Shown: positions 7,383 through 10,300 of the stretch, piece by piece
Layout of the letters: each line of letters opens with the position of its first letter
Numbering within the stretch: the stretch's first letter is position 1
Assembly: GCA_023150835.1 (NCBI GenBank)
Contig: JAKLKB010000106.1
Span: forward strand, 1-24,683
Length of the DNA stretch: 24,683 nt
Direction: 5' to 3'
Source: Myxococcota bacterium
Lineage (GTDB): Bacteria; Myxococcota_C; UBA6777
The notes under the pieces: generated by a model
The model's database searches: none
What the model was told of the DNA's origin: nothing
The model's input: only the letters and a program-made list of their open reading frames with translations
Position numbers and translations under genes: made by a program

Positions 7383-10300
7383 TTAGACGTCGAGATTGCG
7401 GACCCGCAAAGCATTTTCTTCGATGAAGTGTTTACGGGGTTCGACTTGATCGCCCATCAGGACGGTAAAGATATCGTCGGCTTTGTCGAAGTCGTTGAGG
7501 CTCACTTGCAAAAGCGTCCGATGGGCGGGGTCCATCGTGGTTTCCCAAAGCTGATCAGGGTTCATTTCACCGAGACCTTTGTAACGCTGGATATCGCAAC
7601 CTTTTTGCCCGATCTCCAAGAGTCGATTCGCCACGCCTTCGATGCTTTGCAAGGTTTCTTCTTCTTGTTTGATCAAAAGCTTGTAATGGGGGCGACCAAG
7701 CTTTCGCAACGCACGCGCTTCGCGTTCAAGCTGTTGGAAGTCCACCCGTCGGATGGTGGACATGGACAGTTCAAAAGACTGAGAGATCCCATTGATCTGC
7801 GTGGTGACGACGATCTTGTAGATACGTTGGCCTTCTTCGGCGGGGGCGAGTTCGTCTTCTTCCAACTCGATCTGCCACGCTTCACCCGGATACTGCAGCG
7901 CAAACCGCTCCGTCGCTTGTTGTTTCAAGGCTTCGAGAAGGTCGAAGCGGCGCAAAAGCTCGAACCATCCGCCCAGAGAAGACTTCTCGGAACCAAGGGG
8001 AGCTTCAGGCAAGGCGGGCTTTTCCAGCATCAACACCGAAAGGCCCCGTGTATCGAGGTGATGCACCATCGGCAGAAGCTTTTGAAAACGGCGGATATTG
8101 AAACCAAGTTTGATCAAAGCGTCTCCCACAAACGGCATCTCTTCGCCCGAAACAGTCAGCGAAGCGCCATCGCATCCCAACTCAAACAAGAATTCTTCGA
8201 GTGCTTTGTCATCTTTGCAATAAAGCGAACGCTTGCCTTTTTTCACCCGATACAGCGGGGGTTGTGCGATATACAGATGGCCGCGCTTGATCAAGTCCGC
8301 CATGTGCCGAAAGTAAAACGTCAGCAACAGCGTGCGGATATGGCTCCCGTCCACATCCGCGTCTGTGTTGTGGCAGCAAAGACCGCCCAAACCAGCAACA
8401 AAGTTTTCATCGCCTTCCACAGAAAAGTCGTACACAAAACCGTTGGTTGATTCGACTTGTTGGATCGAAGTGATGGGCAGTCCCATCAAGTCGCCCTCAA
8501 GAAGCGCAAAGCCTCGATGTTTCGGGTGCTCTGCGCCCTCTTCTTCGCGTTCAAACAGCTTTGTTGCGTGCGGGTGTTTTCGCCAAACCGAGCGCAGCGC
8601 TTGGATATCCTCGTGATCGCGGATCGAAAGACACCAAGAAGCAAGGCGCGAAGCAACCGATGAGTCGGATGTATCGCGATGGTTTTCTTCGGAGCTTTGC
8701 GCAGTGATCGACGCAACCACCCCCATCGTCGAAAGCAAGTACTGAAGGCCACTTGCGAGATCGCGAGAAGACGCAGCAAATCTGATTGTTCCCTCAGAAA
8801 GGCTCCCATCCGCCAACAGAGCGCCAAACAAAAAGGCTTCTTTGAGTTTTTGCGGTACAGAAAACACCAGATTCGGGATGTGTTTGGTTTCGCAAGCCTG
8901 ATCCACCCAACCAAACAAAGACCTCCACACCAACGAAGCCACGCGATGAACCAGCTTGATCTCGCCCACCTGCTCCATCGACTCGTAGGCACGGGCATCG
9001 AGACCAAACACCCGTAAGATCCGCGCCTGCGTTTGGTTCAACAGATCTGTGTTGCCGACGCCAAAGCTCCAGCGAACGCCATCGCGCTCAGAACACGAGC
9101 CTTTCGCCACAAAACACCCCAACAAACACATCAAGTCTTCATCGACACGCAGAAAACGATCCAAGCCGTAATCGCTGCGATGTTCGGAGGTGAGGATGAG
9201 ATCTTCACGCTCGCCAAACGCTTCGATCTCTTCGGGCCGAAGGGAAGACAAACCGATCTTTTCATCCCAAGCAGCGGACGTACGCACCCATACTTGAGCC
9301 GCCATCTCAGGGATCGTGTGCGCTCTTTTCAAAAGGTCGAGCGATGCAGGCGCATCTTCGGGCAAGCGCAAGCGTTTCGGAGCCACAAGCAGGTCGCCGA
9401 TCTGTAGCTCATCCCCACGCTTCAACTGGAGAGCGCCCTCTTTGTGAACAAAAACGCTGTGGCTGGCGGTGACGCGAACCTCCCGTCCATAGGCTGTTTT
9501 GACTTGGTACAGAGCCTCTTCGATCGGGTGACGGAGGATGCTTTTGATCGGTCGGAAGCGGATCTGCTTGTCTTCCAAGCCAAAACAAAGCACTTCGCCC
9601 AAGTCTGCACCTGTGTACTTGTCCACGCCTTCATAACCGATACTACGCCATTTCAGGGCTTGATCGATAAACTTGCCGATCGAGGTCATCTGCACACCGT
9701 TGTGATCGCGCACAAACACATGTTCTTCGGCATCCACGCTCATAACGATCACTTTGTGATAGCGGAGTTTTCCGACATCAAAGAGCTCTTTTCCGATGCC
9801 CGTACCCATCGCGGTGATCAAGGTGACGATCTCTTGGGAGGACAGCATCTTTTCATCGCTGGCCTTTTCGACGTTTAGGATCTTTCCGCGCAGAGGGAGG
9901 ACAGCTTGGGTTTTGCGGTCGCGGCCCATCTTTGCGGAACCACCGGCAGAATCCCCTTCGACAATGTAGAGTTCGCACAAGGCGGGATCTTTTTCTTGGC
10001 AGTCGGCGAGCTTTCCGGGCAAAGAGCCGATCTCCAAAGCGCCCTTGCGCTGGACCAATTCGCGGGCGCGTTTGGCAGCGTCGCGGGCTTTGGCGGCCAT
10101 GATCCCTTTTTGGATGATCAAGCGGGCTTCACGGGGATTTTCTTCAAGATAACGCGACAAAGATTCGTTTGCGATCTGTTCGACAAGACCGCGAATCTCG
10201 CTATTTCCGAGTTTGGTTTTGGTTTGGCCTTCAAACTGCGGCTGCGGCAGCTTGACGCTGATCACGGCCACAAGGCCCTCGCGCACATCTTCGCCCGAAA

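Follow-up and report, generated by a model that had tools for sequence, protein, structure and literature searches.

The window, by which we mean the whole stretch of 24,683 nucleotides analysed here, corresponds to contig C43 of a 7.56 Mb assembly (G000). It carries on its minus strand an open reading frame identified as gyrB by the NCBIfam model TIGR01059 (E 1.8e-297), and this frame contains an intein made of a Hint splicing domain and a LAGLIDADG endonuclease remnant (Table 1). Ahead of the usual GyrB start the frame has an N-terminal extension of 157 residues, rich in Ser, Glu and Pro (11217-11687, minus strand).

Table 1. Positions of gyrB, its intein and the motifs discussed in the text (window coordinates)
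Feature	Position	Strand	Remarks
gyrB open reading frame with intein	7383..11687	minus	1434 aa; 976 aa once the intein is removed
Start of C-extein, TDADVDG, TOPRIM metal motif	8346..8366	minus	+1 residue Thr1108
Intein, residues S650-N1107, 458 aa	8367..9740	minus	models, empty site in G002, fold
Hint splicing domain, C-terminal part, ending ...CCHN (His1106-Asn1107)	8367..8498	minus	TIGR01443 over cut-off
LAGLIDADG endonuclease remnant	8499..9155	minus	Pfam LAGLIDADG_3, fold
Block E, second LAGLIDADG helix, 15 residues	8796..8840	minus	Asp960 (8808-8810) kept
Block C, first LAGLIDADG helix, 15 residues	9090..9134	minus	Lys862 (9102-9104) at the catalytic-acid position
Shortened linker replacing the helix-turn-helix of intact alleles	9156..9362	minus	43 aa vs 153-163 aa in the equal alignment interval
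Hint splicing domain, N-terminal part, starting at Ser1	9363..9740	minus	TIGR01445 over cut-off
Block B TxxH (T740, H743)	9459..9470	minus	Thr and His invariant in alignment A3
EGDSAGG, residues 577-583, Synechocystis-type intein site	9939..9959	minus	uninterrupted; 66 residues upstream of the window intein

The insertion point is one residue ahead of the first Asp of the TOPRIM motif TDADVDG, and the ends of the insert (residues 650-1107) were read over 14 residues on either side. The model search proposed in the earlier note recovered Pfam Intein_splicing (E 8.9e-17) and LAGLIDADG_3 (E 4.1e-11) on the insert, both over their curated cut-offs, as were NCBIfam intein_Nterm and intein_Cterm. 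The boundaries were confirmed by a relative with an empty site (G002), in which the 21 residues read across the site include an uninterrupted LIVMTDADVDG; the insert is thus in frame, and a homologue lacks it at a sharply defined point of GyrB. That an intein sits at the DxD motif of this GyrB, at residues 650-1107 and positions 8367-9740 and with a product of 976 residues after excision, had been claimed from the sequence alone and proved exact; the observation is confirmed far beyond chance. In G+C content the insert (54.0%) and its host gene (53.5%) are equal.

The residue set of a class 1 intein is complete in the window, comprising Ser650, the block B TxxH, block F, His1106, Asn1107 and Thr1108, in agreement with the first reading of T740/H743 and the junction residues. 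The AlphaFold model of the window intein, obtained with a 26-row alignment, reached a mean pLDDT of 87.0 and a pTM of 0.89 (a model from three sequences, with a pLDDT of 45.7, was discarded). The model shows the Hint fold, with Z scores of 16-37 against solved inteins, and its best matches, over their full length, are the endonuclease-bearing inteins TliVMA (Z 37.3), PI-PkoII (Z 34.7) and PhoVMA (Z 31.5); the endonuclease remnant folds in it as a complete LAGLIDADG domain.

Distribution and inheritance of the intein

The class- and phylum-level draws around the window yielded five genomes, which are all that the collection holds of this lineage. Besides the window, three of them have the GyrB site occupied by a matching intein, namely G001, from the genus of the window, with 85% identity, G003, from another genus, where the intein is cut by two contig ends, and G004, from a third genus, with 570 aa. 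We rejected the reading of G003 as a split gyrB, since both matches run into contig ends and an assembly break is simpler. The remaining genome, G002, is a genus-mate of G003 and yet its site is empty, showing that gyrB can exist without the intein. In the same G002, a GyrA/ParC-type topoisomerase A subunit (L036, contig C36) carries two inteins in its N-terminal part.

One further full match (G335), in GyrB and at the identical point, came from a draw of 386 genomes that included 381 from other bacteria, and a second cross-domain draw added no genomes beyond the first. Matching genomes amounted to 12 of 400 in the phylum of G335 and, within the class to which G780 belongs, to 24 of 396. One genome, G485, contains at 100% the 99,204-base plasmid CP000877 of Herpetosiphon aurantiacus DSM 785, and from the phylum of this species we take the phylum of G335 and G485 to be Chloroflexota; TOPRIM-site GyrB inteins were found there with profile E values down to 6e-131. 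Altogether, 30 complete inteins were extracted with the identical junction M/S...HN/TDADVDG (slashes mark splice junctions), and the window intein belongs to this GyrB TOPRIM-site allele both by its insertion point and by its full-length relationship.

Ser1 and the +1 Thr are invariant in 30/30 complete inteins at the site, and the block B Thr and His, the block F Asp and the terminal His-Asn are likewise invariant in the aligned ones. The Ser at position 1 had been correctly read but taken as peculiar to the window copy; as it is invariant in all 30 copies, it is a family trait, normal for the TOPRIM-site allele and no oddity. Inteins that begin with Ser in place of Cys are well known, and the fold matches include others of this type, such as 8cpo and 9hth (entries deposited as S1A variants). 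Two adjacent Cys precede the last two residues of the window intein (CCHN, 8367-8378), a pair present also in G001, G003 and several Chloroflexota copies and missing from others.

Searches of phages, plasmids and viral contigs returned no close copy of the intein, just distant LAGLIDADG matches, and no second copy was found in the window's own genome. At least five further genes with inteins are present in that genome, on contigs C40, C229, C235, C225 and C202 (L005, L009, L008, L010, L012); they encode DnaB (a mini-intein), DnaE (with LAGLIDADG), UDP-glucose dehydrogenase, a SpoVR family protein and IMP dehydrogenase. The IMP dehydrogenase intein (L012, C202) lies in the catalytic loop, VGQGPG/CFAAG...HN/SICTTRVIAG, again inside an active-site motif.

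The presence of the allele in two bacterial groups suggests transfer between Chloroflexota and the lineage of the window, which the trees do not prove. Over three groups, the splits of the extein tree and those of the intein tree are compatible with each other, and the Chloroflexota-class clade of the intein tree is weak (48/88); from the extein tree, partly disturbed because the flanks of L071 and L085 contain second inteins, just the well-supported part covering the window's own lineage was used. Between the window and G001, synonymous divergence is similar along the gene, with dS of 0.24 for the extein, 0.27 for the Hint domain and 0.30 for the endonuclease remnant. Since these genus-mates split, the intein has therefore passed down vertically together with gyrB.

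Endonuclease remnant and decay pattern

The window intein retains a LAGLIDADG fold with two motifs, in which the pair of catalytic acids is incomplete. As claimed from the sequence at the outset, a Lys (Lys862) replaces the acid in the first helix and Asp960 is kept in the second; in full-length relatives the two positions are Glu or Asp and Asp, and in a profile alignment Lys862 falls on the block C catalytic Glu of PI-PkoII. The second change is a deletion. Full-length alleles (551-572 aa) have a helix-turn-helix region between the N-terminal Hint part and the LAGLIDADG domain, in an interval of 153-163 aa, and in all except G780 the block C residue is Glu or Asp and that of block E is Asp. 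In the window and in G001 this interval is reduced to 43 aa, with block C Lys and block E Asp, and set against the 21 intact alleles of this site the window copy has lost a helix-turn-helix of roughly 100 aa.

The same two parts are lost together elsewhere. Block C Lys is found also in G003, with 73 aa in the interval (incomplete sequence), and the helix-turn-helix region is absent from G744 (431 aa), with Trp/Gly in blocks C/E, and from G419 (373 aa), with Ala/Ala; G780 (562 aa) has Glu/Gly and keeps its length, though no Pfam helix-turn-helix is recognised in it. Both catalytic acids are kept in 21 of the 26 aligned alleles, and Pfam HTH_31 was matched in 21 of the 26, the unmatched members including the window, L058, L066 and L067. 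The five acid-losing alleles, the window among them, have no recognisable helix-turn-helix, mostly through a deletion of about 100-190 aa. On the intein tree, acid loss needs four independent changes and the large deletion three; the two go the same way in 3/3 pairs differing in both, too small a number of independent events for significance (sign test p 0.25). Judging from the sequence, both cutting and DNA recognition appear damaged in the window intein, and since the acid and the recognition domain are both lost its homing is most likely gone.

Selection on the remnant was evaluated from dN/dS between the window and G001, the one close pair on which the values for the decayed form rest. It increased from 0.033 in the extein to 0.175 in the Hint domain and 0.36 in the endonuclease remnant (bootstrap 0.23-0.52); the interval for the LAGLIDADG part, 0.21-0.56, overlaps the intervals of some of the intact pairs, for which LAGLIDADG dN/dS was 0.02-0.25. 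A value of 0.69 for the extein of L062/L063 was discarded as an artefact of misaligned flanks. Selection on the window remnant thus looks relaxed, though not neutral. The open frame is in itself no evidence of function, since a stop or a frameshift would break GyrB. The block C Lys is common to G000, G001 and G003, genomes with synonymous sites near saturation (dS about 1.3-1.7), and with Lys862 in two genera and a dN/dS clearly below 1 the remnant is not just in free decay. The low dN/dS could be due to structural constraint imposed by the splicing fold, an effect that these values do not separate from that of a retained function.

Proposed splicing, probable loss of homing and rival explanations

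Very probably, the insert is a LAGLIDADG intein that is able to splice, has left its homing phase behind and is inherited with gyrB, splicing and the loss of cutting being deduced from its residues and domains. Intein splicing proceeds by an established chemistry, consisting of an N-O acyl shift, transesterification, Asn cyclisation and ligation. In the GyrB precursor, after translation, Ser1 would attack the preceding peptide bond (N-O acyl shift), the chain would move to Thr+1 by transesterification, and Asn458 of the intein would cyclise, with ligation of the exteins restoring TDADVDG. Because the insert parts the Glu of EGDSAGG and the strand preceding the motif from the DxDxD aspartates, unspliced GyrB would, from the position of the insert, be unable to assemble the TOPRIM metal site. 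Its ancestor was very probably a mobile allele inserted at the identical point of GyrB, with a two-helix LAGLIDADG endonuclease and a helix-turn-helix as in the intact members; in the lineage of the window the first acid changed to Lys and the helix-turn-helix was deleted. The intein would then be kept because exact excision is a rare event and inexact excision a lethal one.

The earlier note went further and suggested that only the essential host gene keeps the intein in place. Such passive retention is overstated, considering the empty site of G002 and the dN/dS of 0.36 of the remnant. The anatomy of the intein and the loss of the acid thus stood, and what had to be given up was Ser1 as a special feature and the firmness on homing loss and on passive retention.

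The rival that survives best, which we still consider unlikely, is that the remnant is kept for another job, as a part of the splicing fold, in site-specific DNA binding or nicking, or in a condition-responsive splicing, with the Lys as an adapted residue. The upper bound of 0.52 on the dN/dS of the remnant, the complete LAGLIDADG fold in the model and the sharing of the Lys by three genomes despite near-saturated synonymous sites speak for it; on the other hand, loss of the helix-turn-helix accompanies acid loss in 4/4 lineages, the Trp, Ala and Gly at the acid positions of other lineages form a pattern of decay, and dead endonuclease domains can persist by supporting the folding of the splicing domain. 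We would give little chance to a sharper form of the idea, that the Lys form was kept after homing loss for a role useful to the host, such as timing gyrase B activity or acting on the gyrB locus by binding or nicking it.

Continued mobility, either because enough activity is left with a block C Lys or because mobilisation occurs in trans or through an intact copy at another place, would fit the patchy distribution, in which G002 has an empty site and G003, of the same genus, an occupied one. We regard it as very improbable, given that the window's genome has no second copy, that the like synonymous divergence of intein and extein between G000 and G001 leaves no room for a recent transfer there, and that the recognition domain is absent. 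It is scarcely credible that the insert no longer splices and that GyrB works or fails in its interrupted form with another subunit taking over, as the candidate substitute, an intein-free second type II topoisomerase B subunit on contig C79 of G000 (47% identity to the N-terminal part), is a paralogue with one member in every genome of the family, and as the splicing residues are all invariant, the Hint dN/dS indicates purifying selection and a single clean precursor frame is retained in at least four genomes.

With a splicing intein past homing as the preferred reading, the kind of object is already known, and its value is that a single site offers a whole series of alleles: empty in G002, intact in Herpetosiphon, G004 and others, and decayed to differing extents in G780, the window, G001, G003, G744 and G419. 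The decay series spans two bacterial groups and makes the homing cycle (invade, fix, decay, lose) testable stepwise at a single essential gene, addressing which part is lost first, whether acid and recognition domain are lost jointly, and for how long a dead endonuclease persists.

Comparison with known inteins

Among solved inteins, the best relative by sequence is PI-PkoII, the DNA polymerase intein 2 of Thermococcus kodakarensis (PDB 2cw7; E 1.6e-44 with a three-row profile), which takes second place in the fold comparison (Z 34.7, 403 residues). Like the window intein it combines a Hint domain, two LAGLIDADG motifs and an extra DNA-binding region, but it resides in an archaeal polymerase and keeps the block C Glu that is replaced by Lys in the window. 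The Mja and Mvu TFIIB mini-inteins (PDB 5o9j, 5o9i) have splicing domains near to that of the window (profile E about 1e-30; for 5o9i, 34% identity by fold), whereas they have another host and were solved without an endonuclease. In the PhoVMA intein of Pyrococcus horikoshii (PDB 7qst; Z 31.5) the block C and E acids are lost and the endonuclease was experimentally inactive (PMC8966425). It shares with the window a folded LAGLIDADG domain and the loss of catalytic acid, and differs in its VMA host and site, in Cys1 and in having lost both acids, compared with one acid and the helix-turn-helix in the window; it is a direct precedent for a folded but inactive intein endonuclease.

Within GyrB, the intein of Herpetosiphon aurantiacus DSM 785 (G485, L062) has the exact site, the Ser1, the +1 Thr and the domains of the window intein; unlike it, it is 551 aa long, with the helix-turn-helix and both catalytic acids present. 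An open-access literature search on the TDADVDG site of GyrB and on Herpetosiphon inteins found nothing, and a first description is not claimed. A gyrB intein allele has been surveyed in haloarchaea, cyanobacteria and others (PMC4071816), and the junction of the Synechocystis (Ssp) GyrB intein reads ...GG/SA (PMC2794532). These share the host protein with the window but are inserted at a different site. In Chloroflexota copies the Synechocystis-type site, a sequence of 12 residues, has Cys1 and a +1 Ser, in contrast to Ser1 and the +1 Thr of the window, and the insertion with +1 Ser at the corresponding 10 residues is absent from the window. The Chloroflexota genomes G832, G891 and G1109 have in GyrB an additional Cys1 intein ending in HN/SAKQGRDR, seen whole in G832 as EGDSAGG/CFSGD...HN/SAKQGRDR; their GyrB proteins (L071, L082 and L085, from G1109, G832 and G891) thus carry two inteins each, one at the 10-residue Synechocystis-type site and one at M/TDADVDG. 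The TOPRIM-site and Synechocystis-type GyrB inteins are two separate alleles, and beside the well-used Synechocystis site there is now a second one in GyrB, whose inteins use Ser1 and +1 Thr.
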